From: Chromobacterium amazonense
Lineage (GTDB): Bacteria > Pseudomonadota > Gammaproteobacteria > Burkholderiales > Chromobacteriaceae
Reading direction: 5' to 3'
DNA length: 64,000 nt
Assembly (NCBI RefSeq): GCF_001855565.1
Contig: NZ_MKCR01000004.1
Location: 62,001 to 126,000, forward strand
The notes under the pieces are model-generated. The model worked only from the letters and a program-made list of their open reading frames with translations, did not search any database and was not told the origin of the DNA. Shown here piece by piece: positions 7,565-27,193 of this stretch. The position numbers were made by a program, and so were the translations under genes. The number at the start of each line of letters is the position of its first letter. Within the stretch, counting starts at the first letter, position 1.

Positions 7565-7616
7565 CTAGAATCTGTGAATGGCGGCGAGGGTAGCATCTGC
7601 GGACCGGGCTGCCAAA

Positions 7617-8384: not shown

Positions 8385-8403
8385 GGCGCATCCTTTCCGC
8401 GAC

Positions 8404-9111: not shown

Positions 9112-9165
9112 GCGGCCATGCTCCCATCGGTTTCCACCTCATGGTTATAGCCGCTGCGGCGCCGC

Positions 9166-10194
9166 TCAGTCGCTGAGTACGCGCTGCATCACCTCCAGCA
9201 AGCGGTCGATGTCGGCCCGGCTGACCTGCCAGTGGGTGACCAGCCGCATCGCGCCCTGGTGCGGCGGATTGGCCAGGAAGCCGGCCTGCTTCAGCGCCGA
9301 CATCAGCTCGCTGGCGTCGATTTCGGCATTGAAGCGGAACCACACCAGATTGATGTGGACGTCGGCCGGGTCCAGATCGATGCACGGCAGCTTGGCCAAG
9401 CCTTCTGCCAGATAACGGGCGTTCTGGTGGTCCTCATCCAGCCGGGCCGCCATCTCGGTCAAGGCCACGATGCCGGGCGCGGCGATCACGCCGGCCTGGC
9501 GCATGCCGCCGCCCAGCAGCTTGCGCTTGCGGCGCGCCCGGGCGATGAAGTCGGCGCGGCCGGCCAGTATCGAGCCGACCGGCGCGGCCAGGCCCTTGGA
9601 CAGGCAGAACATCACGCTGTCCGCATGGCGGGCGATTTCGCTCGCCTCGCAGCCCAGATGCGCCGCGGCATTGAACAAGCGCGCGCCGTCCAGGTGCACC
9701 GGCACGTCGTATGCGCGCGCCAGCGCGGCGGTGTCCGCCATCGCCGACAGCGGCAGCACGCGGCCGTTGCTGTGGGCGTTTTCCAGACAGATCAGGCCGG
9801 TGCGCGGCTCGTGGATGTCGTCGCCGACGCGGATGCGGCGCTCTATCGCCTCCACCGCCATCACGCCGCCCTCGCCCTCTATGGTGCGCATATGGGCGCC
9901 GGCGATCACCGCCGCCGCGCCGGCCTCATGCCAGACCAGGTGGCTATTGTCCTCGGCGATCACCTCGTCGCCGCGGCGGCAATGGGTGTACAGCGCCAGC
10001 TGGTTGCCGAAGGTGCCGCTGGGCACGAACAGCGCGGCCTCTTTGCCCAACGTGTCGGCGGCCAGCGCCTCCAGCTTCTGCACGGTGGGGTCGTCGCCAT
10101 AGACGTCGTCCCCCACCGGGGCGTCGAACATGGCCTGGCGCATGGCCGGCGTCGGTTGGGTCACGGTATCGCTGCGAAGGTCTATCCACTGCAT
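9166..10194 (-). CDS. ltaE: Low-specificity L-threonine aldolase
   Basis: 342-residue PLP enzyme of fold type I, splitting L-threonine or L-allo-threonine into glycine and acetaldehyde in the cytosol. The family opening is intact (IDLRSDTVTQPTPAMRQAM, then VGDDVYGDDPTV). LFVPSGTFGNQLAL, ICLENAHSNGRVLPL and VHLDGARLFNAAAHLG are the cofactor-contact segments, and the Schiff-base lysine is in MFCLSKGLAAPVGS near residue 200. Length is normal. It starts 13 bp after the TetR-type regulator gene on the same strand, so the two probably form an operon. Confidence 0.94.
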   Translation of the reverse strand: MQWIDLRSDTVTQPTPAMRQAMFDAPVGDDVYGDDPTVQKLEALAADTLGKEAALFVPSGTFGNQLALYTHCRRGDEVIAEDNSHLVWHEAGAAAVIAGAHMRTIEGEGGVMAVEAIERRIRVGDDIHEPRTGLICLENAHSNGRVLPLSAMADTAALARAYDVPVHLDGARLFNAAAHLGCEASEIARHADSVMFCLSKGLAAPVGSILAGRADFIARARRKRKLLGGGMRQAGVIAAPGIVALTEMAARLDEDHQNARYLAEGLAKLPCIDLDPADVHINLVWFRFNAEIDASELMSALKQAGFLANPPHQGAMRLVTHWQVSRADIDRLLEVMQRVLSD

Positions 10195-10207
10195 GTGTCG
10201 CTTCTCC

Positions 10208-10813
10208 TCAAGGGTGTGGCTGCGCCGGCAAGCCCAAAAAGCCAGCCAACGCGTCGGTAATCAGTTGTTCCAGCCCGGCAGGCGGCGCGCCGGCATCCAG
10301 CAGCAGGCCATGGACCAGGCTATCCGCCATGCGCAGCAGCACCTCGGCGCGCCCGGCCTCCAGGCCGCATGCCTGCAGCCAGACAGCCACGCGCTGCAAT
10401 AACGCCGCGTCCTGCGGATTGCTGGCGGGCGGCTCGTCGAACGCCGGCCATTCGCGCTCCAGCACTCGGTGCAGGCCCAGCTCGCGCCGATGCAGGTCCA
10501 GCGCCGCGGCCACCATCGCCGCCAGTTGCTCCCGCGGCGGACGCCCGTCGCTCGCCACCAAGGCGGCATCCAGCGCGGCCAGCGTCTCTTCGCCATGGCG
10601 GCGATGCAACGCCGCCACCAGCGCCTGCTTGTTGGGAAAGTACTGGTATAGCGAACCGATGCCGACGCCGGCCAGCTCAGCCACGCGGTTGGTGTTGAAC
10701 GCGGCATAGCCCTCGCTCGCCAGAATGCGAGCCGCCGCCTCAAGAATGGCGGCGACGGCATGGCGGGAACGGTTCTGGCGCGGCGTTTTGCGCGGTTGCG
10801 GGATGTCGTGCAT
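10208..10813 (-). CDS. TetR/AcrR family transcriptional regulator
   Basis: 201 residues. The N-terminal TetR helix-turn-helix is complete: AVAAILEAAARILASEGYAA, then FNTNRVAELAGVGIGSLYQY with FPNKQALV. The C-terminal ligand domain is alpha-helical and unspecific. It directly precedes ltaE (13 bp) and is divergent from the darcynin-like gene across about 100 bp, so it may regulate itself with ltaE, and possibly the divergent gene. The gap contains CTAGCTAAACACGAG, but I see no convincing long operator palindrome. Confidence 0.9.
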   Translation of the reverse strand: MHDIPQPRKTPRQNRSRHAVAAILEAAARILASEGYAAFNTNRVAELAGVGIGSLYQYFPNKQALVAALHRRHGEETLAALDAALVASDGRPPREQLAAMVAAALDLHRRELGLHRVLEREWPAFDEPPASNPQDAALLQRVAVWLQACGLEAGRAEVLLRMADSLVHGLLLDAGAPPAGLEQLITDALAGFLGLPAQPHP

Positions 10814-10914
10814 CGAACTAGCTAAACACGAGTTTTCGCCTATCGCAAGCCAGCTTACATTTTATGCAGCGCGGCGCCGGCCCGCCCTTCCCTATCCCGC
10901 TCTGGAGAATCACC

Positions 10915-11250
10915 ATGTCGCAACCCATGACTTTCTTCGCGTTGATGCGCGTCCATCCCAACTGGCTGCGCCTGAGCCGGCCGGAACGCCGCCGCTTCGA
11001 GCAGGAAACGCTGCAGCCGATTTATGCGCGCTTCCCCGGCGTAAAAATGCGCTGGTTCGACGCGGAAGCGTTCACCACGCGCTGCAGCGACGTCGCCATG
11101 TTCGAAGCCGAATCGGCCAAGGCGTTCTATTTTCTGATCGACGCGCTGCGCGACAGCCCGCTGATGACCGAACCGTACTTCGAATTCGTGGACATCATCC
11201 CGGCCGTGGAGGACGGCTTCCGCGACTACGACGCGCAGCTGGCGCGATAA
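10915..11250 (+). CDS. Darcynin-like small protein
   Basis: 111 residues, soluble, no signal peptide. The ATG at 10915 follows CTGGAGAATCACC. The pattern FFALMRVHPNWLRLSRPERR, then MRWFDAEAFTTRCSDVAMFE and FEFVDIIPAVEDGF resembles the darcynin family (domain of unknown function, dimeric ferredoxin-like fold expected). No catalytic residues can be assigned. It is divergent from the TetR gene and followed by a hairpin at 11257. The family name is from memory of its pattern, so moderate confidence. Confidence 0.6.
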   Translation: MSQPMTFFALMRVHPNWLRLSRPERRRFEQETLQPIYARFPGVKMRWFDAEAFTTRCSDVAMFEAESAKAFYFLIDALRDSPLMTEPYFEFVDIIPAVEDGFRDYDAQLAR

Positions 11251-11256
11251 AAGCCG

Positions 11257-11279
11257 ACGGCGGCCGCTGGGGCCGCCGT
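11257..11279 (+). terminator. GC-rich hairpin after the darcynin-like gene
   Basis: ACGGCGGCC / GGCCGCCGT with a short GCTGG loop, starting six bases after the stop codon. There is no T-run, so it may act as an RNA 3'-end stabiliser or a Rho-assisted stop rather than a classical terminator. A second smaller hairpin (GCCGGC/GCCGGC) lies near 11323-11339. Confidence 0.45.
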
Positions 11280-11370
11280 AATCGGTTGCGCTTGCGCGCC
11301 ACAGGCAAGGAACCTGTTGGAGCCGGCCCGAGGCCGGCGCGGGAGTCAACGGATTGTCAGCAAATCTTGC

Positions 11371-11595
11371 CTAGTGAATGCGATACGATTGTCGAATGGC
11401 GTCAGCCTGGCGTTCAGCTTTCTGGATTTCGGGAGCGCCCATGCTGATGTCGGCGCCGCAGCGGCAGCGCAAGGCATGGTCGGGTAGCAGGGACTTCAGG
11501 TGCATCCGGGTTTCGCGCCCGCACTCCTCGCAGGCGATCACCACCGTGGCGTTGTAATGCTTGTCCAAATCGATATCGAATCTTTGCTGCTTCAT
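11371..11595 (-). CDS. Small zinc-ribbon-like protein of unknown function
   Basis: 74 residues. ATG at 11595 after a GGGAGATTCCG ribosome site; longer upstream in-frame starts are not supported. Cysteines are arranged as CEEC (22-25) and CRC (44-46), which could bind zinc. The rest is charged (MKQQRFDIDLDKHYNATVVI, then EIQKAERQADAIRQSYRIH). No enzyme motif. It could be a nucleic-acid- or protein-binding accessory protein, but nothing nearby shows its role. Confidence 0.6.
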   Translation of the reverse strand: MKQQRFDIDLDKHYNATVVIACEECGRETRMHLKSLLPDHALRCRCGADISMGAPEIQKAERQADAIRQSYRIH

Positions 11596-11867
11596 CGGAA
11601 TCTCCCTAGTACTGAGAGTTGGCCGGCAGAGGAATCGCCGCAAGCCATTCGTGCCGGTCCCGCAACACATGCCCGGAAAAGCCGGGCACGTAATAGACAA
11701 GATACGGCTGATCCAAAAAGGTTCCAATCAATCAAGCAGTTGGATTGTAAAAAAATCTTCACGCCGGCCAGAAACGCCACAACGCGGCGGCAAAACCGCG
11801 CGCGAACTGGCACTGCGACGGCGGCTTGGTTATCCTTGGCCGTTTTTCGCAAGCCAGGTAATGCCAG

Positions 11868-12644
11868 ATGGACCACACAGCCGATCTCGACCGCCGCTTC
11901 GGCGGCATTGCCCGCCTCTATGGCGACGACGCGCTGGCGCGCTTTCGCCGCGCCCATGTCTGCGTGGTGGGCGTCGGCGGCGTCGGCTCCTGGGCCGTCG
12001 AGGCGCTGGCGCGCAGCGCCATCGGCAAACTGACGCTGATCGACCTGGACAATGTGGCGGAATCGAACACCAACCGCCAGCTGCCGGCGCTGGACCCGCT
12101 GTACGGCATGGCCAAGGTGACGGCGCTGGCCGAGCGGGTGAAGGCCATCAACCCGGCCTGCGAGGTGACGGAGATAGAGGACTTCGTCACCGAAGAGAAT
12201 ATGGACGAGCTGCTGGGCCGCGGTTACGACTACATCGTCGACTGCATCGACAGCCTGAAAGTGAAGACGGCGATGGCCGCCTGGTGCGCCAGGAAGCGCC
12301 AGCGCTTCATCGTGTCCGGCGGCGCCGGCGGCCAGATGGACCCGAGCCGGATCAAGCTGGCCGACCTGTCCGAGGTGACGCAGGACCCGCTGCTGTCCAA
12401 GCTGCGCTACAACCTGCGCCGCCATCACGGCTTCGCCCGCGACGGCAAGAAGATGGGCGTGCCCTGCGTCTACTCCACCGAGCAGCTGGTCTACCCGCAA
12501 GCCCAGGCCTGCGACGCTGGAGAGGCGCGCGGGCCTCAAGGCTTATCCTGCGCCGGCTTCGGCGCCGGCATGGTGGTGACGGCCAGCTTCGGCCTGTTCG
12601 CCGCATCGCGGGTGCTGACCGATCTGGCCAAGACTAAGAAGTAA
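11868..12644 (+). CDS. tcdA: tRNA threonylcarbamoyladenosine dehydratase
   Basis: 258-residue E1-like ATP-dependent enzyme (also called CsdL) that cyclises t6A37 to ct6A in ANN-decoding tRNAs. The ThiF/MoeB Rossmann core is clear: RFGGIARLYGDDALARFRRA, then VVGVGGVGSWAVEALARS, LTLIDLDNVAESNTNRQLPA and DYIVDCIDSLKVKTAM. The C-terminus has the family's GFGAGMVVTASFGLFAA membrane-like helix. Length is normal for TcdA. The gene stands alone, with a 270-bp upstream gap that holds only a small TGCCCGG/CCGGGCA hairpin near 11668-11686. Confidence 0.92.
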   Translation: MDHTADLDRRFGGIARLYGDDALARFRRAHVCVVGVGGVGSWAVEALARSAIGKLTLIDLDNVAESNTNRQLPALDPLYGMAKVTALAERVKAINPACEVTEIEDFVTEENMDELLGRGYDYIVDCIDSLKVKTAMAAWCARKRQRFIVSGGAGGQMDPSRIKLADLSEVTQDPLLSKLRYNLRRHHGFARDGKKMGVPCVYSTEQLVYPQAQACDAGEARGPQGLSCAGFGAGMVVTASFGLFAASRVLTDLAKTKK

Positions 12645-12745
12645 GCAGGCCCCAGTTGCTTACAAAAACACACGGTTTTGCATCCGCTACGCGGATGATG
12701 ATTTCCATTGCCGGGGCTGCCCTCCACCCCTAAAGGCCACCCTGC

Positions 12746-12935
12746 AAGCCTGGCCTTCGCCTCCCCGCTGGGTCCCGCCAGGCCCGAGGCGCGGCTGAAC
12801 TCTCTGCGTGCGAATCTCTCACGAGGCGAGGCAAAGCCTCGCACGTAGAGATTCGCTCAGCGATGCGCGCTAACGTCGCTGGGCTCAAACAAACAGCCGC
12901 TTAAAACCTCGGGCCTGCCACCCAGCGGCAGGCTT
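12746..12935. repeat. Nested inverted-repeat (palindromic) intergenic element
   Basis: The 372-bp gap 12645-13016 has no convincing gene. It contains an outer inverted pair (AAGCCTGG and CCGCTGGGT...AGGCCCGAGG at 12746-12790, against CCTCGGGCCT...ACCCAGCGG and CAGGCTT at 12907-12935). Inside is a long hairpin: GCGAATCTCT (12810-12819) with AGAGATTCGC (12847-12856), and at its tip GCGAGGC-AAA-GCCTCGC (12826-12842). A separate CATCCGC-TAC-GCGGATG hairpin is at 12681-12697. The nesting resembles a REP/MITE-type element. Confidence 0.55.
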
Positions 12936-13016
12936 AAAGGGACCGGGGCACATCGAAAACGTCATGTATCCGCAACAACAAGCGCAAATGCTGCGCCAAG
13001 AATAGCCAATCGATGC

Positions 13017-13409
13017 TCAGCCCTTGCGCTGAATCAGATCCCACTGATTGCCGCACAAGTCGCGGAACACCGCCACCGTGCCGTAGTCCTGCACCATAGG
13101 CTCGCGGGTGAACTCCACGCCCGCCGCGCGGTAGCGCTCGTAATCGCGCCAGAAATCGTCGGTGTTCAGGAACAGCCACACCCGGCCGCCGGCCTGATTG
13201 CCGATGGCGGCGCGCTGAACGTCGTTGCTGGCCTTGGCCAATAGCAGGCTGGCCGCCGAACCGGGCGGCGTCACCACCACCCAGCGTTTGTCCTGCTCCG
13301 GCTGGTAGCTATCCTCGGTCAGCTCGAAACCCAGCTTGCCGACAAAGAAATCGATGGCCTCGTCGTAGTCGGCCACCACCAGCGACACCAGCGCCAAACT
13401 CTGCTTCAT
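13017..13409 (-). CDS. VOC family (glyoxalase/bleomycin-resistance fold) protein
   Basis: 130 residues with one vicinal-oxygen-chelate unit pair: LALVSLVVADYDEAIDFFVG, LGFELTEDSYQ, then WVVVTPPGSAASLLLAKA in the first half, and GRVWLFLNTDDFWRDYERYR, VEFTREPM, GTVAVFRDLCGNQWDLIQ in the second. The metal-site pattern (E/D in the last strand before the end) fits small lyases and dioxygenase-like proteins. The substrate is unknown. The ATG at 13409 follows GGAGCAAGAAC. About 160 bp of non-coding sequence separates it from the cdh gene upstream. Confidence 0.88.
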   Translation of the reverse strand: MKQSLALVSLVVADYDEAIDFFVGKLGFELTEDSYQPEQDKRWVVVTPPGSAASLLLAKASNDVQRAAIGNQAGGRVWLFLNTDDFWRDYERYRAAGVEFTREPMVQDYGTVAVFRDLCGNQWDLIQRKG

Positions 13410-13568
13410 GTTCTTGCTCCACAGCCAGGCGCCGCCGGCGGGACATCCGCCAGCCTGCGCCGCGCCTCGGCAAAAGCTCGATGATACAGCGGGCCGCTGC
13501 CCTCAGGCGCGGTGGATGGTATGACAACTTGCCGTTTTGCTGCAGCAAGGGACAGCCCTTGTTCGCGC

Positions 13569-14330
13569 TCACGGCTGCAGAATCTTGCAGTCGTGGTCCT
13601 GCAGCTCCTCGGCTGACGCTCGGTTAACGCTAAGCAGGTCGGCGCGCGTAGCCAGCAGCACAAACCCGGGGCCATCGGCAAAGCCCGCCGGCAGCAAGGC
13701 CAAACCATAGCGGCCCATTTCCTCTCGCGCGCCGGGGAGGCCGTCGGCCAGCATGCGGAACGGATCGGCTGCTGGATCGCCATTGGCGTCGGCATCGACG
13801 CGGCGCGCCCAATATGAGTGCCCCTCCAGCTCCACCGGCAACTGCCGCCAGCCGGCATTCAGGCTGTCATTCAGATCATCCACCTGCTGCCTCACCTTGC
13901 GGTCGACGCAGGATATGTGGATGTGCAGCTGGTTCTGGCTGCGCCCGTACTGCGAATTGATCGCCAGCGACACCGCCTGCCGCGGCAGCGGCTGGCCGCG
14001 CTTGGTATCCATGAAACGGCGCGCCTGCCAGGCCTCGCGCCAATAGGCCGGCGCGTCGTTCTGCAGCAGCCGCGGGCTTTCGATGCCGCTGACCCGCTCC
14101 GTGGGAATCAACAGGTACTGCAGCGCGCCGTTGCGGTCCTTCAGCACCGCCACGCCTTGTTGCAGCTTGACCTCCGCGCACGGCTCGGGGGCACCCTTGG
14201 CCTGCATGTCCGGCACGCACTGCTCGCCGACGATGCGCCACAGCGCGTCGCTGTCCGCCAAGGCACGATAGGACACGCCGGCCGCCAGCAAGGCGCATAG
14301 GCTGAGGCCGACAAAGATTCTTTTTTTCAT
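13569..14330 (-). CDS. cdh: CDP-diacylglycerol diphosphatase
   Basis: 253 residues. The enzyme hydrolyses CDP-diacylglycerol to phosphatidate and CMP at the inner membrane. The start at 14330 opens a signal or anchor segment (MKKRIFVGLSLCALLAAGVS). The body matches the Cdh family throughout: DALWRIVGEQCVP, VLKDRNGALQYLLIPTERVS, RQAVSLAINSQYGRSQNQLH and HIHISC (a HIT-like histidine triad pattern), ending RASAEELQDHDCKIL. Transcription is divergent from the LuxC/LuxE cluster across an AT-rich region. I see no functional link beyond position. Confidence 0.9.
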   Translation of the reverse strand: MKKRIFVGLSLCALLAAGVSYRALADSDALWRIVGEQCVPDMQAKGAPEPCAEVKLQQGVAVLKDRNGALQYLLIPTERVSGIESPRLLQNDAPAYWREAWQARRFMDTKRGQPLPRQAVSLAINSQYGRSQNQLHIHISCVDRKVRQQVDDLNDSLNAGWRQLPVELEGHSYWARRVDADANGDPAADPFRMLADGLPGAREEMGRYGLALLPAGFADGPGFVLLATRADLLSVNRASAEELQDHDCKILQP

Positions 14331-14619
14331 GGGAATCCGGGAAGAAAATGGGAAGGCGACTGAAAAATTTCCGCGCATGGCGGCCCTGATCGGTAGCTCA
14401 ATTACATCAAACATGTGGTTAAAACCACAAAAATGTTTCGATAAATTTTCGTGTTTCGACCTTATCTTTCGTAAATGTGACAAACAATAGAACAAAAGAA
14501 TAAGTTCAATACTTAAGGACAGGTTTTTATCTGCTCATATGGCATATCTTTGCCCCGCCGCGCAGATCCCGCCGCGGCCAAGCAATCCTAATGTTATCGA
14601 TGCAGAAACCGCAACAACC
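14331..14619. promoter_or_regulatory. AT-rich divergent regulatory region between cdh and the LuxC/LuxE cluster
   Basis: The region is much more AT-rich than its surroundings. It contains a perfect 16-bp palindrome TGTGGTTAAAACCACA (14414-14429), a plausible dimeric regulator site. TTTCG is then repeated at four places between about 14436 and 14475, with irregular spacing. No single promoter pair is convincing. The position between two divergent starts makes it the likely control point for the cluster. An in-frame ATG at 14539 within it would lengthen the exporter by 27 residues. Confidence 0.45.
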
Positions 14620-15876
14620 ATGTCCGAAGAATCATTCCGTCCGCTGCTGTACCTTTCCCGCCGCCAGGCCTTGCTGTTCTGCCTGCTGCTTACTGCCTTT
14701 GAGCTATTGACCTATCTGGCCAGCGATATGGTGATGCCCGCCATGCTGCAGGTCACACGGGATCTCTCCGCCGCCAGCCACCACGTCCCCACTGCGCTGA
14801 ACGCCTTCCTGCTGGGCGGCATCGCCTTCCAGTGGCTGATCGGCCCATTGTCCGACCGCTTCGGCCGCCGTCCGACGCTGCTGGCCGGCACGCTGATCTT
14901 CGCCCTCGCCTGCCTCGCCGCCGCCGGCAGCCAGCACATAGGCTGGTTCAACCTGCTGCGCTTCGTCCAGGGCATCGCGCTGGGCTTCATCGTGGTGGTC
15001 AGCTATCCCGCGCTGCAGGAGATCTTCAACGAGCGCGACGCGGTGCGGCTGATGGCCTTGCTGGCCAATATCGCCTTGCTGTCGCCGCTGGCCGGCCCTT
15101 TGCTGGGCAGCCTGCTGCTGGAAGTCCTGTCTTGGCGCCAGCTGTTCGCCGCGCTCGGCGCAGCCACCGTGCTGGTGACGCTGGGCCTGTGGCGCTGGAT
15201 GCCGGAAACGCTGGGCGCGCCGCGGCGCGACGGCCCGGCGCAGCAGCCGGTGCCGCTGCGCCTGGGCGTGGCGCTGGCCAATTACCTGGCGCTGCTCAAA
15301 CACCGCGACTTCGTCTGCGGCAGCCTGGCGCTGGGCCTGCTGACTCTGCCGCTGATCGCCTGGATCGGCCTGTCGCCGCTGCTGCTGATCCGCCAGCTGG
15401 GTTACAGCAGCCTGCAATACGGCCTGTGGCAGCTGCCGGTGTTCGCCGCGATGATAGGCGGCAATCTGCTCTTGAACCGGATGGCCGGGCGGATGGAATT
15501 GTCCAGCCTGCTGCGGCTGGCGCTGTGGCCGATGGCCGGCGGCCTGCTGCTGACCGGACTCGCCGCCCCGCTGTCGCCGTCGCTGCCGGCCTTGGTCGCC
15601 TGCTTCTGCGTCTACGCCTTCGGCCTGGGGCTGGGCAACGCCACCCTGTATCGGCTGACGCTGTATTGCAGCGACAACGCCAAAGGCAGCGTCGCCGCGA
15701 TGCTGGGCATGTTGTCCACCGCCATGCTGGGCGGCGGCAGCGCCATGCTCGCCCTTCTGGACGCCGGCGACAGCCCGTCCCGCTTCGCCGCCGGCGTCAG
15801 CTTGGCCTCGCTGCTGGCCTTGCCGCCCTTGTGGCTGCTGCTGCGCCGCCCGCAGCTCGAGCCCGTCTCCGCCTGA
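14620..15876 (+). CDS. MdfA-like major facilitator multidrug/metabolite exporter
   Basis: About 418 residues from the ATG at 14620 (MSEESFRPLLYLSRRQALL); the ATG at 14539 would add a non-membrane tail. Twelve hydrophobic segments. The first contains FELLTYLASDM, keeping both acidic residues that correspond to MdfA Glu26 and Asp34, followed by the MFS loop motif GPLSDRFGRRPTLLAG and the motif C-like region SPLAGPLLGSLLLE. MdfA-type pumps exchange protons for small cationic or neutral compounds. First gene of a five-gene set whose other members are acyl-activating, reducing and acetylating enzymes, so it probably exports the product or protects the cell from it (inference). Confidence 0.88.
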   Translation: MSEESFRPLLYLSRRQALLFCLLLTAFELLTYLASDMVMPAMLQVTRDLSAASHHVPTALNAFLLGGIAFQWLIGPLSDRFGRRPTLLAGTLIFALACLAAAGSQHIGWFNLLRFVQGIALGFIVVVSYPALQEIFNERDAVRLMALLANIALLSPLAGPLLGSLLLEVLSWRQLFAALGAATVLVTLGLWRWMPETLGAPRRDGPAQQPVPLRLGVALANYLALLKHRDFVCGSLALGLLTLPLIAWIGLSPLLLIRQLGYSSLQYGLWQLPVFAAMIGGNLLLNRMAGRMELSSLLRLALWPMAGGLLLTGLAAPLSPSLPALVACFCVYAFGLGLGNATLYRLTLYCSDNAKGSVAAMLGMLSTAMLGGGSAMLALLDAGDSPSRFAAGVSLASLLALPPLWLLLRRPQLEPVSA

Positions 15877-15905
15877 CTTCCGATTTCTTCATCACGGGAA
15901 CCGTC

Positions 15906-17036
15906 ATGATCACACTCCCCCATGTCGAGGCCTTGTGCGCGTTGGAACACCCCTACCGCGCCGACGCCGAATGCGACCGTCTGTTCGACGCCGCGATGCG
16001 CCAACTGGTCGACTACCACTGCGAACACAGCCCCGGCTACCGCAGCTGGCTGGAACAGAACGGCTTCACGCCGCAGCGGCTGGCCAGCCTGACCGACTGG
16101 TCCGAATTGCCGCCCATCTTCGCCAATTACTTCAAACGCCGGCTGCTGCTGAGCAAAACCGGCGAAGACGCGCTGGAGCTGACCTCGTCCGGCACCACCG
16201 GCCAGAAGAGCCGCATGCGCTATGACGAACGCAGCATCCACGCCGCCCAGCGCATGGTGGACCGCATCTTCGACCACTACGGCTGGAATACGCCGGAGCA
16301 ACCGTGCAACTACCTGCTGCTCAGCTACGAGCCGGCCGGCGCCATCACCCTGGGCACCGCCTACACCGACCAGTTCCTGTGCAAATACGCGCCGATCAAC
16401 CGCGCCCTCTACGCGCTGCGCCACAACGGCAAGGGCAATGAGTTCGACCCTTTCGGGACGATACGCGCGCTGCAGGAATTCGCCGAGGAAGGCCTGCCGG
16501 TGCGCATCTTCGGCTTCCCCGCCTTCCTGTGGTTCACGCTGCAACGGATGCGCGACATGGGTCTGCCCCCGCTGGCCCTGCATCCGGAATCGCTGGTTCT
16601 GCTCGGCGGCGGCTGGAAAACCCATGCCGACCAAGCGATACCGAAGATCGAACTGTACCGCCGGCTGGGCGAGCAACTGGGCCTGCCCGACGAACGCTGC
16701 CGCGACGGCTACGGTTCGGTCGAGCACCCGGTGCCTTATAACGAATGCCCGCGCCACCGCCTGCACGTGCCCAGCTGGGCGCGCGCCTGGATCCGCGACA
16801 CCGCCACCCTGGCACGCCTGCCTTACGGCCAGCCCGGCTTCCTGCACTTGGCTTCGCCCTACATCACGTCCAGCCCGGCGCACAGCATGCTGCTGAGCGA
16901 TCTGGCCGTGCTGCAGCCGGCCGAGCGCTGCGGCTGCGGCCTGGCCACCGACTGGTTCGAACTGCTGGGCCGCGCCGGCACCAGCAAGAGCCGCAGCTGC
17001 GCCATGGCGGCGTCTGAACTGATCAAGGAGTCCTGA
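15906..17036 (+). CDS. LuxE-like acyl-protein synthetase
   Basis: 376 residues, soluble. LuxE-family enzymes activate a carboxylate with ATP and hold it as a thioester on a cysteine near the C-terminus before handing it to the LuxC reductase. Seen here: an adenylate-binding loop ELTSSGTTGQKS (91-102), the core GYGSVEHPVPYNEC (268-281), a CGCG pair (342-345) in the C-terminal part, and SRSCAMAASELI with Cys365, close to the acyl-accepting cysteine reported for LuxE. It begins 29 bp after the exporter, and the stop is one base before the next ATG. A carboxylate-activating role is well supported; the acid is unknown. It could instead be a PaaK-type CoA ligase. Confidence 0.82.
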   Translation: MITLPHVEALCALEHPYRADAECDRLFDAAMRQLVDYHCEHSPGYRSWLEQNGFTPQRLASLTDWSELPPIFANYFKRRLLLSKTGEDALELTSSGTTGQKSRMRYDERSIHAAQRMVDRIFDHYGWNTPEQPCNYLLLSYEPAGAITLGTAYTDQFLCKYAPINRALYALRHNGKGNEFDPFGTIRALQEFAEEGLPVRIFGFPAFLWFTLQRMRDMGLPPLALHPESLVLLGGGWKTHADQAIPKIELYRRLGEQLGLPDERCRDGYGSVEHPVPYNECPRHRLHVPSWARAWIRDTATLARLPYGQPGFLHLASPYITSSPAHSMLLSDLAVLQPAERCGCGLATDWFELLGRAGTSKSRSCAMAASELIKES

Positions 17037-17037
17037 T

Positions 17038-19443
17038 ATGTATCTGATCCATGGAGAATTGCGCAGCGACCTCACGCTCGCTGCCGCGCTGGACGCGCTG
17101 CGCCCGCGCCTGGCCGATACCCTGGCCGCGCCGCTGGACGCGGAGACGGTGCTGGCCTGCGCCGAACGCTTCGCGCTGGCCCTTATCGCGGCCGAGCACC
17201 ACCCCTTGCTGGACGCGGCCTCGCGCGCGCAACTGGCCGCCCTTTGCCGCCGCGAGGCGCTGCAAGCCAAACGGGAGCGGGAACTGGGCGAGCGGCCATT
17301 TTCCCTGCGCCGCCGCGACTACCGCGAACCGCGCTTCGAAGCCTGGCAGCCGCTGGGCCTGGTGCTGCACGTCACGCCCGCCAACGCCGCGCTGTTGCCC
17401 TTCCTGGCCGCGCTGGAAGGCTTGCTGGCGGGCAATGTCAACTGGCTGCGCCCCAGCAGCAGCGATCAGGGGCGCAGCGCGCGCTTGCTGGCCGAGCTGC
17501 TGCATCACGACGCCAGCGGCCGCTTGGCCGAGCATATCGCCGTGCTGCCGGCAGCGAACACCGAGCTCTCGCAGCTGCTGGCCGACGCGGACGGAGTATC
17601 CGCCTGGGGCGGCGACGCCGCGCTCGCGGCCATCCGCGCCCAGCTGCCGCCCGGCTGCCGCTGGATAGACTGGGGACACCGCATCAGCTTCGCCTATCTC
17701 GATCCCGCCGCCGCCAGCGACGAGCAGCTGGACGCGCTGGCCGACGATGTCTGCCGCCATGACCAGCAAGCCTGCTCCAGCCCGCAAGCGCTGCTGGTGG
17801 ACAGCGACGATCCGGCCGTGATCCGCGACATGGCGAGCCGGCTCTCCGCCGCGCTGCAGCGGCGCGCGCCGCTATGGCCGGCCTTGACGCCGGACTTGCA
17901 GGAAGCCGCCGAGATCAGCACCCGCATGGCTTTTCACCGCCTGGACCAGGCTTTTGCCGATAGCCAGGGGCAATTGCTGACCGGCGACGGCTGGCGGCTG
18001 GCCTGGAATATGGATCAGGAACTGGCGCCGTCGCCTTTATTCCGCAGCGTGGAACTGAGGCCGGCTCCGCGCGCTGCGCTGGCCCGCATCCTGCGCCCCT
18101 GGCGCACCCATCTGCAAAGCAGCGGCCTGATCGCGCCGCCCGCGCGCTTGCCGGAGCTGAGCCGCATGCTGCTGGCGGCCGGCGTCAGCCGCGTTGCCCC
18201 GGCCGGCCGCATGCACGACGGCTACCACGGCGAGCCGCACGACGGCGTCTACGCGCTGCAGCGGCTGTCGCGCCGGGTGTCGGTCAGCCTGGACGACGCC
18301 GCGCTACCCGGCCACGCCACGCTGGACGAGCCGCCGGCCGAGCCGGAAGGCCTGGCCCAGCTGCCGATCATGGACAAGACCGACTTCCAGAACCAGCCGC
18401 CCAACGACAAGGCCCAGCTATTCTTCCGCAGCGGCGGCAGCAGCGGCGCGCCCAAACTGGCCGGCGTCAGCTACCGCGACTATCACCACCATATGCGCGC
18501 CGCGGCCGACGGCATGCTGGCCGCCGGCCTGAACCCGGCCACCGACCGCGCGATGAACCTGCTCTACGGCGGCAAGATGTACGGCGGCATGCTGAGCTTC
18601 TTCACGATATTGGACTACCTGGGCGTGGCCCAATACCCGATGGGCGGCCCGTCCGACGACGACTTCAGCGAAATCGCCCACTTCATCGTCGAGCAGAAGA
18701 TCAACACCCTGATCGGTATGCCCGGCACCGTGCATAGGCTGTTCGAATGCGAAAGCGCAGTGCTGCGCCGCTACGGCGGCGTGCGCAAGGTGTTCTGCGG
18801 CGGCGAGCACATCAGCGACGGCCAACGCGCCTACATCGGCAGCTTCGGCGTGGAGCGGATACGCTCGGCGATGTATGGCTCGGTCGACGCCGGCCCGCTG
18901 GGCCACGCCTGCGCGCACGGCGGCGACGGCGAATTTCACCTGCTGGCCGCAGCGCAGTGGCTGGAGATACTGGAAACCGACAGCGACCAGGCCGCCGCGC
19001 CCGGCGCAATCGGCCGCCTGGTGTTCACCTCGCGCGAACGCGAGGCGCAGCGCGTGGAGCGCTACGACCTGGGCGATTTGGGACAATGGCTGCCAGGCCC
19101 CTGCCCCTGCGGCCTGGCCACGCCGCGTTTCCGCCTGGCCGGCCGCCACGGCGCGCTGCTGCGGGCGGGCACCATCTTCCTCAACCCGGCCGCGCTGAGC
19201 GAGCAGCTGGGCCTGCCGCTGCAATGGCTGGTCGACCGCGGCGACAACGGCGGCGACCGCATCCGGCTGCTGGCCGACGGCGATACGCGGCCCCTGCGCC
19301 AACGCCTGCTGCAAGACCCCATGCTGCACGAGGTGGTCAGCGGCGGGCTGCTCCAGCTGGACATCATCGCCACGCCAGCCGCCGAATTCCGCCGCCATCC
19401 GCATAGCGGCAAGACCCCCCTGGTACTGGACCTTAGACGCTGA
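17038..19443 (+). CDS. LuxC-like acyl reductase fused to a PaaK/LuxE-like adenylating domain
   Basis: 801 residues, two domains. Residues 1 to about 412 are a LuxC-type NAD(P)H-dependent acyl-thioester reductase: LVLHVTPANAALLPF (109-123), LLAGNVNWLRPSSS (129-142), DQQACSSPQ with the expected catalytic Cys246, and HDGVYALQRLSR (401-412) at the domain end. Residues about 440-801 are a phenylacetate-CoA-ligase/LuxE-like domain: LFFRSGGSSGAPKLAG (461-476), AMYGSVDAGPLGHAC, and CPCGLATPRFRLAGR near the end. The second domain lacks a LuxE-like terminal cysteine. AAGGAG lies 7 bp before the ATG. The fusion suggests activation and reduction of an acyl group to an aldehyde in one polypeptide (inference). 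No luciferase genes are nearby. Confidence 0.85.
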   Translation: MYLIHGELRSDLTLAAALDALRPRLADTLAAPLDAETVLACAERFALALIAAEHHPLLDAASRAQLAALCRREALQAKRERELGERPFSLRRRDYREPRFEAWQPLGLVLHVTPANAALLPFLAALEGLLAGNVNWLRPSSSDQGRSARLLAELLHHDASGRLAEHIAVLPAANTELSQLLADADGVSAWGGDAALAAIRAQLPPGCRWIDWGHRISFAYLDPAAASDEQLDALADDVCRHDQQACSSPQALLVDSDDPAVIRDMASRLSAALQRRAPLWPALTPDLQEAAEISTRMAFHRLDQAFADSQGQLLTGDGWRLAWNMDQELAPSPLFRSVELRPAPRAALARILRPWRTHLQSSGLIAPPARLPELSRMLLAAGVSRVAPAGRMHDGYHGEPHDGVYALQRLSRRVSVSLDDAALPGHATLDEPPAEPEGLAQLPIMDKTDFQNQPPNDKAQLFFRSGGSSGAPKLAGVSYRDYHHHMRAAADGMLAAGLNPATDRAMNLLYGGKMYGGMLSFFTILDYLGVAQYPMGGPSDDDFSEIAHFIVEQKINTLIGMPGTVHRLFECESAVLRRYGGVRKVFCGGEHISDGQRAYIGSFGVERIRSAMYGSVDAGPLGHACAHGGDGEFHLLAAAQWLEILETDSDQAAAPGAIGRLVFTSREREAQRVERYDLGDLGQWLPGPCPCGLATPRFRLAGRHGALLRAGTIFLNPAALSEQLGLPLQWLVDRGDNGGDRIRLLADGDTRPLRQRLLQDPMLHEVVSGGLLQLDIIATPAAEFRRHPHSGKTPLVLDLRR

Positions 19444-19485
19444 AACCCGGCCGGCGCTTCGCCGCCGGCATCTACACACATAATC

Positions 19486-20748
19486 ATGAATCCGAAACTG
19501 ATCTCGCTGGTCAAACACGCCCGCAACCATTCGCCATACTACCGCTCGCTCTACCATGGCCTGCCCGCCGCAGGCTGGCGCTTGTCCGACCTGCCCCCGG
19601 TCGACCCCTCCGCCTACTGGCGCGACTCTCAAGACCTGTCGCGCTGGCCGGCGCTGACCGCCTCCGCGCTCGACGGCCATGTTTTCAAGACCGGCGGCTC
19701 CACCGGCGACGGCAAATTGTCCGTATTCAGCCGCGACGAATGGCAGGCTTTCGTCCGCGCCTTCGGCGCCGGCCTCGCTCGCCAGCTGCGGCCAGGCGAC
19801 CGCGTCGCCAATCTGTTCTTCGCCGGCGACCTCTACACCAGCCTGCTGTTCACCCATGGCGCGCTGTCTCACACGCCGGTGCCGGTGCTGGAATACCCGT
19901 TCAGCTGCACTGTCGATCACGACGCGCTCATCGACGCCATCCGCCGCCACCGCATCAATGTGCTGGCCGGCGTGCCGGCCCAGTTGCTGCGCCTTGTCCA
20001 TCATCTGGAACAGCTCTCGCTGACGCTGCCTGGCGTCGAAACGGTGCTGTATGCCGGCGAAAGCCTGTTCGGCGAGCAGATCGCTCTGTTGAAGCAGGTG
20101 TTCCCGCAGGCCCGCATCGGTTCGATAGGCTGCGCCAGCGTCGACGCCGGCCTGATCGGCTTTGCCGACCCGGACTGCGACCATGGCGAACACCGGGTGT
20201 TCGACGCCGACAGCATCATCGAAATCATCGACGAAGACAGCGGAGAAGCGATAGACGAGCCCGGCCGCCGCGGCCTGCTGCTGGTGACCAATCTGCAGCG
20301 CCGGCTGATGCCGGTGATCCGCTACCCCAGCGGCGACCTGGCCTGCTGGCGCGAGCCGCCCGGTCCGCAGCGCAAGTTCGCGCTGCTGGGCCGCGCCGGC
20401 AACGGCCACCGCGTGCGCGTCGGCACCCTGTCGCTGTTCCCGGACGAGCTGGGCCGCGCGCTGGGCGAACAGCAAGACTTGCTGGCATGGCAGCTGGAAA
20501 TCTCGCGCCGGGACGGGCGCAACTGTCTGGAATTGTTGCTGGCGGCGCGCGCGCCATTGGATTTGCCGCGGCTGCGCCAGGCCCTGCTGGCCAGCCAGCC
20601 GGCCATCGCCGAGCAATGCGGAAAACAACAGCTGAGCCTGGCGCTGCGGCAGGCCTCCCCGGAAGCGATGCGGACCCATCCGCGCTCCGGCAAGCTGCTG
20701 CGCGTGGTGGACCGCCGCGATTATCAACTGGCGGAGGCGCAGCCATGA
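19486..20748 (+). CDS. PaaK-like (phenylacetate-CoA ligase family) adenylate-forming enzyme
   Basis: 420 residues. The N-terminus KLISLVKHARNHSPYYRSLY is the usual PaaK-family opening. FKTGGSTGDGK (68-77) is the phosphate-binding loop, VETVLYAGESLFGEQI a conserved middle segment, and LMPVIRYPSGDLA the adenylate-binding D/R region, followed by a small C-terminal lid ending in HPRSGKLLRV. The family couples ATP use to formation of an acyl-adenylate and then a thioester or amide. It is the third adenylating domain in this cluster. A 42-bp gap with a small GCCGGCG/CGCCGGC-type hairpin precedes it, and its stop overlaps the next start as ATGA. Confidence 0.83.
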   Translation: MNPKLISLVKHARNHSPYYRSLYHGLPAAGWRLSDLPPVDPSAYWRDSQDLSRWPALTASALDGHVFKTGGSTGDGKLSVFSRDEWQAFVRAFGAGLARQLRPGDRVANLFFAGDLYTSLLFTHGALSHTPVPVLEYPFSCTVDHDALIDAIRRHRINVLAGVPAQLLRLVHHLEQLSLTLPGVETVLYAGESLFGEQIALLKQVFPQARIGSIGCASVDAGLIGFADPDCDHGEHRVFDADSIIEIIDEDSGEAIDEPGRRGLLLVTNLQRRLMPVIRYPSGDLACWREPPGPQRKFALLGRAGNGHRVRVGTLSLFPDELGRALGEQQDLLAWQLEISRRDGRNCLELLLAARAPLDLPRLRQALLASQPAIAEQCGKQQLSLALRQASPEAMRTHPRSGKLLRVVDRRDYQLAEAQP

Positions 20749-21683
20749 GCGTCCGCCATCCTGAAACCGCCTGGGTCCGCGACTACCAGCCAGCCGACGC
20801 CGCCGGCATCAGCGCGCTGTTCCGCGCCATCTACGACGACCGCTATTTCTACGCCGATGTCTATCTGCCCAGCCAGATCCAGCAACGCAACGCCAGCGGC
20901 CAGTGGCGCTCGGCGGTGGCAATGCAAGGCGACAGGCTGGTCGGCCACGCGGCGCTGTGGCTGAATCCGGCCTATCCGGGCCAGGCCGAACTGGCGATGA
21001 ACGTGGTGGACCCCGATGCGCGCGGCCAAGGCATCGCCAGCCTGCTGGGCCGGCACCTGCGCGCCGCGGCCGCCGATCTGGGCGTCGCGCTGCTGACCAT
21101 CAAGCAAGTATGCTCGCATCCGCGCAGCCAGTACGTGGCGCAGGCACTGGGCTTTCACAACACGGCGCTGCTGCCGGACTACATCGACACGCCATTTGCC
21201 GGTCCGGTGCCGGAAAGCATCCTCTTGGGCTGCCTGCCGCTGCAAGCTCGGCCGCTGCCGAAGCTGGCGTGGCCGACAGAGTGGGAAAGCTGGCTGGCGC
21301 CGCTGCGCCAGGCTTTCGGAGAGGGAGAGAACGCGCCCGCCGGCGCGGCACTGCCGGGCTTGGCGCTGGCGCGCCACGGCCGGCGGCTGGAGCTGACCGC
21401 GTCACGGCCGACGCCGGCGCGGCTGGCGGAAATCGCCAAGCTGCCCGGCAGCCAGCTGATCTATCTGAAATTGCCGGCCAGCGCGGAAACGCTGGCCTTG
21501 CGGACGCAGCTGCGAGACGCCGGATTTCGCTTCGGCGGCCTGCTGCCGGCGGCGGCCGGAGGCTGGCAACTGCTATGGCTGCGTGGCGTCTCCGAACAAG
21601 ATATCCACTTCAGCGACGAACAGGCCGCGCGTCTGTACCGGCTGTGCCGTTACAGCGGCTCTACCCGCACGGCCGTGCCGTAG
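20745..21683 (+). CDS. GNAT family acetyltransferase with extended C-terminal half
   Basis: 312 residues. Residues about 8-150 form a GNAT domain: VRDYQPADAAGISALFRAIY, a strand ELAMNVVDPDARGQGIASLL with the acetyl-CoA loop RGQGIA, then QALGFHNTALLPDYIDT. The second half (about 160-312) is an extra region with LRDAGFRFGGLLPAA, reminiscent of a degenerate second GNAT fold; that is inference. The start overlaps the PaaK-like stop by 4 bp, so translation is coupled and the gene belongs to the cluster. A role in acylating an amine intermediate or the product is plausible. Its 3' end overlaps the convergent ybjQ gene by 34 bp. Confidence 0.82.
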   Translation: MSVRHPETAWVRDYQPADAAGISALFRAIYDDRYFYADVYLPSQIQQRNASGQWRSAVAMQGDRLVGHAALWLNPAYPGQAELAMNVVDPDARGQGIASLLGRHLRAAAADLGVALLTIKQVCSHPRSQYVAQALGFHNTALLPDYIDTPFAGPVPESILLGCLPLQARPLPKLAWPTEWESWLAPLRQAFGEGENAPAGAALPGLALARHGRRLELTASRPTPARLAEIAKLPGSQLIYLKLPASAETLALRTQLRDAGFRFGGLLPAAAGGWQLLWLRGVSEQDIHFSDEQAARLYRLCRYSGSTRTAVP

Positions 21684-23197: not shown

Positions 23198-24179
23198 TCA
23201 AGCCAGCAGGCAGGAGGACTGCGTGTTTTCGCTCAATTTGCGCAGCTTGGGCGCCTCTTGCGCGCAACGCGCCTCCGCCTGCGGGCAGCGGGTGCGGAAC
23301 ACGCAGCCGGACGGCGGGTTAATCGGGCTGGGCAGGTCGCCCTGCAGGATCTGGATGGTCTTGTTCTTCTCCAGCTTGGGGTCCGGAATGGGAATCGCCG
23401 ACAGCAGCGCGCGGGTGTACGGGTGCGAGGGCACGTCGTACAGAGCGTGCTTGTTGGCCAGCTCCATCTCGCGGCCCAGGTACATCACCAGGATGCGGTC
23501 GGAGATATGCTTGACCACGGCCAGATCGTGGGCGATGAAGATCAGCGCCAGGCCCATCTCGCGCTGCAGTTCCTTCAGCAGATTGATGATCTGCGCCTGG
23601 ATCGACACGTCCAGCGCCGACACCGGCTCGTCGCAGATGATCAGCTTGGGCTCCAGGATCAGCGCGCGGGCGATGCCGATGCGCTGGCACTGGCCGCCGG
23701 AGAACTCGTGCGGATAGCGGTTGATCATCTGCTCGCGCAGGCCGACGCGCTTCATCATCGCCTTGACGCGCTTCATGACTTCTTCCGCCGACAGCTCAGG
23801 CTTGTGCACGCGCAAGGGCTCGCCGATGATCTGGGCGATGGTCATGCGCGGGTTCAGCGACGCCAGCGGATCCTGGAAGATCATCTGGATATCCTTGCGC
23901 ACATTCAGCCAATCCTTCTGGCTCCCCTTGCGCAAGTCCTTGCCCATCCACACGATCTCGCCGTCGGTGGCCGGGATCAGGTTCAGAATGGCGCGGGACA
24001 GCGTGGACTTGCCGCAGCCGGATTCGCCGACCACGCCCAGCGTCTCGCCGGCGCGCAGATCGAAGCTGACGCCGTCGACGGCCTTCAGCGTCTTCTTCGG
24101 GCTCCACGGCCAGGCGTCGCCGCCCTTGACCTGGAAGTGCACTTTGACGTTGCGCACCGACAGAATGATTGGCTTGTTC

Positions 24180-24187
<8 letters not shown>
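23198..24187 (-). CDS. oppF: Oligopeptide ABC transporter ATP-binding protein OppF
   Basis: 329-residue cytoplasmic ATPase of the oligopeptide importer. Walker A GVVGESGCGKSTLSRAIL near residue 55, signature FSGGQCQRIGIARAL, Walker B LIICDEPVSALDV. The C-terminal oligopeptide-transporter extension has the family cysteines CVFRTRCPQAEARC. It overlaps the oppD stop by 8 bp and is the last gene of oppABCDF, followed by a strong terminator. Confidence 0.94.
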
Positions 24188-25181
<994 letters not shown>

Positions 25182-25204
25182 GTCTTGCCTCGTCTATCCT
25201 GGGG

Positions 25205-26119
25205 TCAGCGGTCTTTCGGGTCCAGCGCGTCGCGCAGGCCGTCGCCGATATAGTTGGCGCAGTAAAGCGTCAAGGACAGCATGCCGGCCGGAAACAGCAA
25301 CATCCACGGCTGGCTCTCCATGGCCTTGGTGCCGTCGCCGATCAGCACGCCCCAGCTGGTCATCGGCTCCTGCACGCCCAGGCCGAGGAAGGACAGCACC
25401 GATTCGGTCAGGATCACCCCCGGCACCGTCACCGTGGTGTAGATCACCACGATGCCCAAGAGGTTGGGCACGATATGGCGGAAAATGATGGTGGGGGTGG
25501 ACACGCCGATGGCATGCGCGGCTTCGATGTATTCCTTGGAGCGGATGGCCAGCGTCTGGCCGCGCACCACGCGCGCCATGTCCATCCAGCCCAGGATGGT
25601 GATGGTCAACACCACCAAGTAGAACTCGCGGCCCAGCAGCGTCACCATCAGGATGGCGATCAACAGGTAGGGCACGGCATACATCATGTCGACGATGCGC
25701 ATCATCACATTGTCTACCTTGCCGCCGAGGAAGCCCGCGGTGGCGCCCCACAGCACGCCGATGATCACCGCGGCGATGGTGGCCAGCAGGCCGACCATCA
25801 GCGAGATGCGGCCGCCGATCAGGGTGCGCACCAGCAAGTCGCGGCCCAGTTCATCGGTGCCGAACAGGTGCAGGTTGTGGAAGGTCGGCGCCAGGCTGAT
25901 CGCATCCCAGTCAGTGTCGGCGTAGCCATGCGGCAGCAGCCAGGGGCCGACGATACAGGACAGGGTGATCAGGGTCAGGATCACCAGGCTCACCACGGCG
26001 GCCTTGTTGCGGAAAAAACGGATGCGGGCGTCGCGCCAGGGGCTGCGGCCCTCGGTCGCGGCCTCGACCAGACCGGTTTCCAGCGCCGCGGCAACCGCGG
26101 CTTGTTTGCTTTTCATCAT
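25205..26119 (-). CDS. oppC: Oligopeptide ABC transporter permease OppC
   Basis: 304-residue inner-membrane permease. A soluble N-terminal tail (to about residue 35) is followed by six predicted membrane segments. The cytoplasmic EAA-type loop (KEYIEAAHAIGVSTPTIIFR HIVPNLLG) contacts the ATPases. FGTDELGRDLLVRTLIGGRI is the classic DppC/OppC N-terminal motif. It starts 13 bp after oppB. Confidence 0.93.
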   Translation of the reverse strand: MMKSKQAAVAAALETGLVEAATEGRSPWRDARIRFFRNKAAVVSLVILTLITLSCIVGPWLLPHGYADTDWDAISLAPTFHNLHLFGTDELGRDLLVRTLIGGRISLMVGLLATIAAVIIGVLWGATAGFLGGKVDNVMMRIVDMMYAVPYLLIAILMVTLLGREFYLVVLTITILGWMDMARVVRGQTLAIRSKEYIEAAHAIGVSTPTIIFRHIVPNLLGIVVIYTTVTVPGVILTESVLSFLGLGVQEPMTSWGVLIGDGTKAMESQPWMLLFPAGMLSLTLYCANYIGDGLRDALDPKDR

Positions 26120-26132
26120 TGCGAAATCCCCC

Positions 26133-27053
26133 TCAGTAGCGGATCTTCGGATCGAGCAGGGCGTATGCCAGGTCGACGAGGAGGTTGAACACCACGGTGA
26201 TCACCGTCACCAGCACCACCAGGCCCAGCACCAGCGTGTAATCGCGGTTGGACGCGCCGTTGACGATCAGCTTGCCCAGGCCAGGCAGCGAGAAGATGGA
26301 CTCGGTCACCACGGCGGAGGTGACGGAGGAGATGGCCAGCGGCCCCAGCAGCGTCACCACCGGCATCAGCGCCGGCTTCAGCGCGTGGCGCAGCACGATG
26401 GTGCGCAGCGGCAGGCCCTTGGCGCGGGCGGTGCGGATGAAGTTGCTGTTCATCACCTCGATCAGGCTGCCGCGCATCACGCGGCCGATGGTGGCCACGT
26501 TGATGAACACCAGCAAGGCCACCGGCAACACCATGTAGGAAATGGCGAAATCATCCCAGCCGCCGGACGGCAGCCAGTGCAGCAGCATCGAGAAGATCAG
26601 CACCAGCACCGGGCCGATGATGAAAGACGGGAAGGCGCTGCCCATATTGCCGACCAGCATCACCAGATAGTCAATGACGCTGTTCTGGCGCAAGGCGGCG
26701 ATGGTGCCGAGCAGCACGCCTATCACCAGCGAAATCAGGATGGCGCTGCCGCCGATGGCGGCGGAAACCGGCAGCGCGTGCGCCACCAGATCGTTGACGC
26801 TCCAGTCCGCATAGCGGAAGGACGCGCCCAGATCGCCATGCAGCAGGCTGTTCAGGTAATACAGATATTGCTTCCACAAGGGCAAGTCCAGATGGTACTT
26901 GGCCTGCAGATTGGCCAGCACTTCCGGCGACACCTTGCGTTCGCCGTCGAAAGGACCGCCAGGGGTCAAGTGCAGCAACAGGTAACAGACCGTCGTAACG
27001 GCCCAGACGGTTGGTATCGTCACCAACACGCGGCGAAGAGTGTAAGACCACAT
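26133..27053 (-). CDS. oppB: Oligopeptide ABC transporter permease OppB
   Basis: 306 residues from the ATG at 27053, the same length as E. coli OppB; the longer frame upstream is not supported. The N-terminus MWSYTLRRVLVTIPTVWAVT begins the first membrane segment, followed by TPGGPFDGER. The EAA-like loop reads NFIRTARAKGLPLRTIVLRH, and the tail LVDLAYALLDPKIRY is typical of the family. With OppC it forms the membrane channel for peptides delivered by OppA. Confidence 0.93.
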   Translation of the reverse strand: MWSYTLRRVLVTIPTVWAVTTVCYLLLHLTPGGPFDGERKVSPEVLANLQAKYHLDLPLWKQYLYYLNSLLHGDLGASFRYADWSVNDLVAHALPVSAAIGGSAILISLVIGVLLGTIAALRQNSVIDYLVMLVGNMGSAFPSFIIGPVLVLIFSMLLHWLPSGGWDDFAISYMVLPVALLVFINVATIGRVMRGSLIEVMNSNFIRTARAKGLPLRTIVLRHALKPALMPVVTLLGPLAISSVTSAVVTESIFSLPGLGKLIVNGASNRDYTLVLGLVVLVTVITVVFNLLVDLAYALLDPKIRY

Positions 27054-27133
27054 CGCATGAAACTCCCGTTCGCCCCGCTTCGGCGGCAGGCGGGCGCCGG
27101 CCGCTCGCCCGGGGCGAGAACACCACAATCATC

Positions 27134-27162
27134 GGCCGGTTGCCCTTGCGGGACAACCGGCC
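27134..27162 (-). promoter_or_regulatory. Hairpin between oppA and oppB
   Basis: GGCCGGTTG / CAACCGGCC 9-bp perfect stem in the 140-bp gap between oppA and oppB. It has no U-run. In many binding-protein transporter operons such a structure stabilises the 5' binding-protein message or attenuates downstream genes, giving more OppA than permease; that role is inference here. Confidence 0.5.
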
Positions 27163-27193
27163 TCGTCACGCGGAACTTCCCGCGCGGAATCGC

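Follow-up and report, generated by a model that had tools for sequence, protein, structure and literature searches.

A five-gene cassette in a 64,000-nucleotide stretch of Chromobacterium amazonense DNA (the window; contig NZ_MKCR01000004.1, positions 62,001 to 126,000) is, judging from its sequence, very probably an operon for a leupeptin-type peptide aldehyde: it holds leupABCD and a dedicated exporter of the major facilitator superfamily (MFS). Leupeptin is a small protease inhibitor that is widely used in laboratories. The cassette consists of the following genes:

14620..15876, + strand: MFS exporter of the MdfA/Bcr-CflA type (Pfam MFS_1, 1.1e-35)
15906..17036, + strand: LuxE-like acyl-adenylate/acyl-thioester enzyme, leupA homologue (Pfam LuxE, 6.3e-26)
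17038..19443, + strand: LuxC-AMP-binding fusion, leupB homologue (Pfam LuxC, 4e-135, and AMP-binding, 2.7e-7)
19486..20748, + strand: stand-alone PaaK-like AMP-forming ligase, leupC homologue (Pfam AMP-binding, 6e-8)
20745..21683, + strand: GNAT acetyltransferase, leupD homologue (Pfam Acetyltransf_1, 1.9e-9)

All five frames are open in the window. From 5' to 3', 29, 1 and 42 bases lie between the first four genes, and the last two genes overlap by 4 bases; the MFS frame has an alternative upstream ATG at 14539. The initial annotation of this DNA had described five co-directional genes of these kinds (MdfA-like, LuxE-like, LuxC fusion, PaaK-like and GNAT), and the open reading frames (ORFs), Pfam and NCBIfam confirmed the description. 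The top NCBIfam model for the MFS protein was the MdfA family, with 329 bits, under its cut-off of 439. The NCBIfam LuxE model scored 68 bits against a cut-off of 550, and the LuxC model 54 bits against 750. Because these scores lie far under the cut-offs, the LuxE-like and LuxC-like proteins are relatives of the lux enzymes and not lux enzymes themselves. The genes luxA, luxB and luxD, which stand alongside luxC and luxE in a lux operon, are missing here, as the initial annotation had also stated: Pfam found none of their families among the five cassette proteins or the eight flanking ORFs. A fatty-aldehyde or lux-like role was considered and dropped. The carrier and condensation domains expected of a nonribosomal peptide synthetase (NRPS) for peptide aldehydes of the antipain type were not found by Pfam in the five cassette proteins at expectation values (E) up to 0.1.

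The host list of the relatives, with Photorhabdus, Xenorhabdus and Klebsiella michiganensis, suggested the leupeptin operon, and a primer match then tested this idea. PMC8283571 places leupABCD of K. oxytoca CAV1374 at 315,353-321,183 (5,831 bp) beside an adjacent gene that its available text calls only 'transporter', and it gives the primers leupA_f and leupB_r for a product of 1,235 bp. In the locus of K. michiganensis DSM 25444 (L084), leupA_f matched at 10053-10073 (+ strand) within the LuxE-like gene, and leupB_r matched at 11268-11287 (- strand) within the LuxC-fusion gene, both with 0 mismatches. The two matches span 1,235 bp, equal to the published amplicon, and the mean number of chance matches in 100 shuffles was 0.00. 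Therefore, leupA is the LuxE-like gene and leupB is the LuxC fusion. The four genes of this K. michiganensis locus cover about 5.8 kb, and an MFS gene lies just upstream. Between the window and this locus, protein identity is 68% for LuxE, 55% for the LuxC fusion, 53% for PaaK, 44% for GNAT and 54% for MFS. Both have the order leupA-leupB-leupC-leupD on one strand, and the adjacent transporter of the published operon has its counterpart in the MFS gene at 14620-15876 of the window. Literature searches with the enzyme-family names found no description of the gene set; the product name leupeptin led to the leup papers. No prior report of leupeptin biosynthesis in Chromobacterium was found in the open-licence literature, judged by titles and the starts of abstracts.

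The function of leup operons is described in two sources, both of which, in their available text, rest on Li et al. 2020. According to PMC11480411, which gives 427.30 as the [M+H]+ of leupeptin (the lysine congener is at 399.30), K. oxytoca (K. michiganensis ATCC 8724) has a leup cluster that yields leupeptin and a lysine analogue, the operon of P. luminescens yields a leupeptin-derived Leu-Arg pyrazinone, and operons of Xenorhabdus and Photorhabdus yield the homoarginine form of this pyrazinone; the same source reports that leup genes correlate with respiratory isolates in Klebsiella. According to PMC11212599, X. bovienii SS-2004 makes leupeptin by a non-NRPS route, in which separate AMP-dependent ligases form the amide bonds and a reductase forms the aldehyde. 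In the available text of PMC9177418, Li et al. appears in the reference list only. The available part of another paper, PMC7326052, proved unrelated to the gene set, and the paper was set aside.

The window proteins carry the AMP-dependent ligases and the reductase of such a route with intact motifs. The residues checked were picked from conserved columns together with known motifs. In the LuxE-like protein, Cys365 aligns with a C-terminal Cys in the LuxE chain of 7xc6, a LuxC-LuxE structure, and is present in 85/85 rows compared; it is proposed to be the acyl-carrying residue. The fusion protein consists of an N-terminal LuxC-like reductase domain (about residues 31-413) and a PaaK-like AMP-forming ligase domain (about 440-801), and its AlphaFold model (predicted local distance difference test score, pLDDT, 82.5; predicted template modelling score, pTM, 0.64) resembles both PaaK-type ligases and LuxC as seen in 7xc6. 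In the LuxC domain, Cys246 aligns with this LuxC chain. Five of the 85 rows were left out of the fusion-protein check, and Cys246 and six adenylation residues were found in all 80 rows kept. Thus both members of a LuxC-LuxE-type Cys pair, acyl-carrying in LuxE and catalytic in LuxC, are present in the window, and we take this aligned pair, Cys365 and Cys246, to be the residues that are catalytic in LuxC and LuxE. For the stand-alone PaaK-like ligase, which we propose from its sequence to be an amide synthetase, two of 82 rows were left out; in the other 80, five of six chosen residues were invariant and the sixth, S218, was variable. The GNAT protein has a GNAT fold across residues 7-173 (AlphaFold pLDDT 90.7), and its nearest relative by sequence among solved structures is 5dwm (E 1.6e-5), a phosphinothricin N-acetyltransferase, which is of the amino-acid type. 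Its C-terminal half (about residues 174-312) is also conserved, with, for example, G192, G265, W274 and R280 invariant in 26 rows. The sequence leads us to propose that the GNAT protein is a leucine N-alpha-acetyltransferase.

From these assignments a pathway can be proposed. First of all, the GNAT protein (LeupD) would acetylate leucine. LeupC and the C-terminal domain of LeupB, using ATP, would then couple Ac-Leu with Leu and Ac-Leu-Leu with arginine. The LuxE-like protein (LeupA) would adenylate the tripeptide acid, hold it as a thioester on Cys365 and pass the acyl group to Cys246 in the LuxC domain of LeupB, where reduction with NAD(P)H would release acetyl-Leu-Leu-argininal. Finally, the MFS protein would export this aldehyde. 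We infer that the three adenylation domains match two amide bonds and one ATP-dependent carboxyl reduction. For Chromobacterium, the assignment of ligases to bonds, the catalytic steps, the cargo of the exporter and the exact residues of the product are what we infer from sequence likeness. An idea that predated the leupeptin assignment, self-condensation of amino aldehydes to pyrazines without peptide bonds, was dropped.

We then quantified how widely the arrangement is conserved. A LuxE-profile scan with one genome per species gave 360 confirmed relatives, of which the best 80 were compared; the counts are thus those of the closest relatives. In 77 of these 80, LuxE, LuxC fusion, PaaK and GNAT stood in this order, spread over many genera, and the remaining three (L037, L038 and L059) run off contig ends. 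Within the genus, 15 of 19 genomes carry the fusion protein, the window's own (4.0 Mb) counted: it is whole in 12 and cut by contig ends in three (G013, G018 and G027), and four genomes are without it. Among 42 genomes from other genera of the family, only weak, partial matches to the fusion protein were seen (best 1.3e-11), and in an even draw of 398 genomes from the phylum it occurred in two at E <= 1e-60, again with the window's own counted. The share of genus genomes with the fusion and the four-gene order in the relatives make the arrangement more than chance. The initial annotation had named an absence of synteny outside this strain as one outcome that would refute its reading, and the result was the opposite. 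Outside the cassette, the only gene family to recur in three genera (80 genome loci) is one that looks LysR-like by eye, so the cassette is a self-contained unit. Some copies are irregular: LuxC and PaaK are shortened in L091, LuxC of L069 is split in two, and an internal stop was counted within the matched stretch of PaaK in L036 and of GNAT in L039, L040 and L083. These stops and pieces may reflect decay, sequencing error or an alignment running past the stop.

The genomic sites and the phylogeny were compared across these loci. Both flanks of L036, L039 and L040 match the window flanks; in L037 and L038 the upstream flank matches and the downstream one is cut off. No match to the window flanks was found in L043, L045, L047 and L059 of the C. 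haemolyticum group. Because flanks differ within the genus, the cassette seems to occupy more than one site in Chromobacterium. A tree of LeupA plus LeupB was built from 44 rows (the window, 39 of the 80 genome loci and four of the five plasmid loci) by a quick method with midpoint rooting, and branch support came from the SH-aLRT (Shimodaira-Hasegawa-like approximate likelihood ratio test) only. The window copy pairs with that of Chromobacterium sinusclupearum, with which it shares 96% identity over LeupA and LeupB. A clade of 14 rows (SH-aLRT 95) holds the window, other Chromobacterium, one Burkholderia multivorans, five Photorhabdus and one X. bovienii copy, and the K. michiganensis copy lies outside it. 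Groups with reported producers thus lie to either side of the window copy, the strains in the tree being other than the tested ones. The copies of L043, L045 and L047 group with those of Photorhabdus and X. bovienii, which points to an exchange among families that are far apart. The copies of L088 (Pantoea) and L090 (Pseudomonas entomophila) are close in the tree, with end branches of 0.039 and 0.026, which suggests a recent transfer between families.

Relatives were found in Chromobacterium, other beta-proteobacteria, Pseudomonas, one Rhizobiales genome, actinomycete plasmids and Salmonella plasmids. Two Salmonella enterica IncF plasmids, typed as conjugative, carry the set (L031, 10467-16630; L032, 10467-16563), and their MFS gene is a short remnant matching residues 12-81. 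In L032, the gene table has no entry for the GNAT gene, and its match is split in two. Three Streptomyces/Streptantibioticus plasmids (L033, L034 and L035) encode a LuxE protein with 56% identity and a LuxC fusion with 40-44% identity, with a PaaK-like gene upstream. The annotated Streptomyces plasmid L034 has the order PaaK-MFS-GNAT-LuxE-LuxC fusion (6857-14298); the ORFs of L033 show the same order by eye, and in L035 the genes checked were PaaK, LuxE and the LuxC fusion. The GNAT protein of L034 is longer, and hhalign relates about 200 of its residues to the leupD family (probability 94.3%, E 9.8e-8). Its MFS protein showed no significant BLASTP similarity to that of the window. Leupeptin in Streptomyces is attributed to NRPSs, including in the available text of PMC11212599. 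It is conceivable, though we hold it with more doubt than confidence, that the leup cassette moves as a module from phylum to phylum, that the rearranged actinomycete plasmid set is the basis of a non-NRPS leupeptin, and that Chromobacterium has congeners of its own.

Several observations weigh against the assignment of the window cassette to leupeptin. First, leupC and leupD are assigned to the PaaK-like and GNAT genes by the order of locus tags in the available text of PMC8283571, not by a sequence match, and the relatives that we compared, such as X. bovienii T228 and K. michiganensis DSM 25444, differ from the named producer strains. Second, the structure matches of the GNAT protein include several GNAT kinds and are nearly tied, so they do not point specifically to an amino-acid substrate, and VIA-align yielded no fold or role for its C-terminal half. 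Since this protein is only 44% identical to that of K. michiganensis, it could select another acyl group or amino acid; other leup operons are reported to give lysine and homoarginine forms (PMC11480411). Third, a promoter scan found no sigma-70-like promoter, which is weak evidence either way. Finally, 43 of the 80 loci have a same-strand MFS gene of this family immediately upstream (42 by the gap rule plus L041, whose MFS match reaches the LuxE start; in L089 as fragments only), and none was found at this place in the 13 loci from Photorhabdus and the 19 from Xenorhabdus. Because none of these 32 shows it, the exporter is not universal. It was also not seen in L077, L088, L090, L091 and L106; in L067 an MFS-related match lies on the other strand. 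L046, L076 and L077 have less than 1.5 kb of upstream sequence, so absence there is uninformative.

In a variant of the leupeptin assignment, compatible with it, the Chromobacterium enzymes would make a peptide aldehyde other than leupeptin itself, one that differs in its N-acyl group or its residues, or they would make mainly a pyrazinone signal. The lysine and homoarginine forms and derived pyrazinones known from leup operons (PMC11480411) are in its favor, as is the fact that the GNAT and PaaK-like proteins are the most diverged, at 44% and 53% identity to K. michiganensis. Nevertheless, the window copy stands between reported producer groups in the tree and has conserved motif residues, and we consider the variant rather unlikely. 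Far less probable is a LuxC/LuxE reductive module for the modification of lipids, tetronates or glycans, of the kind found in flagellin glycosylation islands or O-antigen loci. In the available text of PMC4875605 and PMC4522980, LuxC/LuxE genes do lie in flagellar islands, together with acyl carrier protein (ACP) and fatty-acid-type genes. At the 80 genome loci, however, only the LysR-like family recurs outside the cassette in at least three genera, so no ACP, fatty acid synthase or glycosyltransferase gene recurs beside it, and the orthology to leupAB is direct. The initial annotation had read the cassette as an undescribed reductive pathway with an unknown substrate. The gene families alone name no product, and the generic labels LuxE, PaaK and GNAT hide the identity of the set, but published primers and papers identify it as leupABCD, which makes this reading equally improbable. 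What stood of it is the outline of activation, reduction, acetylation and export, which fits leupeptin; the word undescribed did not, since the set has been published as leupABCD with an adjacent transporter.

The window showed no Rfam match and no tRNA, and its three terminator-like sites, against a chance mean of 4.6, are not above chance. Downstream, at 23198-28810 on the - strand, lies an oligopeptide ATP-binding cassette (ABC) transporter set, with an ATPase carrying an oligo_HPY domain and a family 5 solute-binding protein. Its position near a peptide-aldehyde operon is probably a coincidence.

The assignment turns an apparently new pathway into a testable one: going by their genes, Chromobacterium species probably make a leupeptin-type protease inhibitor. 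It also shows how generic annotation labels such as LuxE, PaaK and GNAT conceal a leup operon. The relatives reach well beyond the genera named in the available text of published leup accounts, and the reordered Streptomyces plasmid set is a possible non-NRPS leupeptin route in actinomycetes, where leupeptin has been attributed to NRPSs.

Compared with known systems, the PaaK-like ligases of the window have the AMP-forming ligase family and fold in common with NatL2 (6siw), AjiA1 (6wuq) and ClxA (9s3l). The ligands in the Protein Data Bank titles are salicylic acid for NatL2 and 3-amino-4-hydroxybenzoic acid for ClxA, whereas the window ligases are proposed to form peptide amide bonds. With the LuxC-LuxE fatty acid reductase of Photobacterium phosphoreum (7xc6), the window enzymes are proposed to share adenylation, a thioester on the C-terminal LuxE Cys and reduction at the LuxC Cys. 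They differ from it in that LuxC is fused to an extra AMP ligase, the cassette has no luxA, luxB or luxD, and the proposed substrate is an N-acyl peptide rather than a fatty acid. The leup operons of Photorhabdus and Xenorhabdus have the four-gene order of the window in 32/32 loci (with LuxC in two pieces in L069) and LuxE proteins 74-78% identical to that of the window, and they differ in showing no same-strand MFS gene of this family directly upstream in the sequence available. The cassette shares its layout with leupABCD of Klebsiella michiganensis/oxytoca (CAV1374; ATCC 8724), which has the same genes, order, strand and kind of upstream MFS gene at 44-68% identity (L084), whereas the window comes from a different bacterial order and has diverged in sequence. 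Read as a leup operon, the Chromobacterium cassette is a further example of a described pathway in a new host group and not a new pathway.

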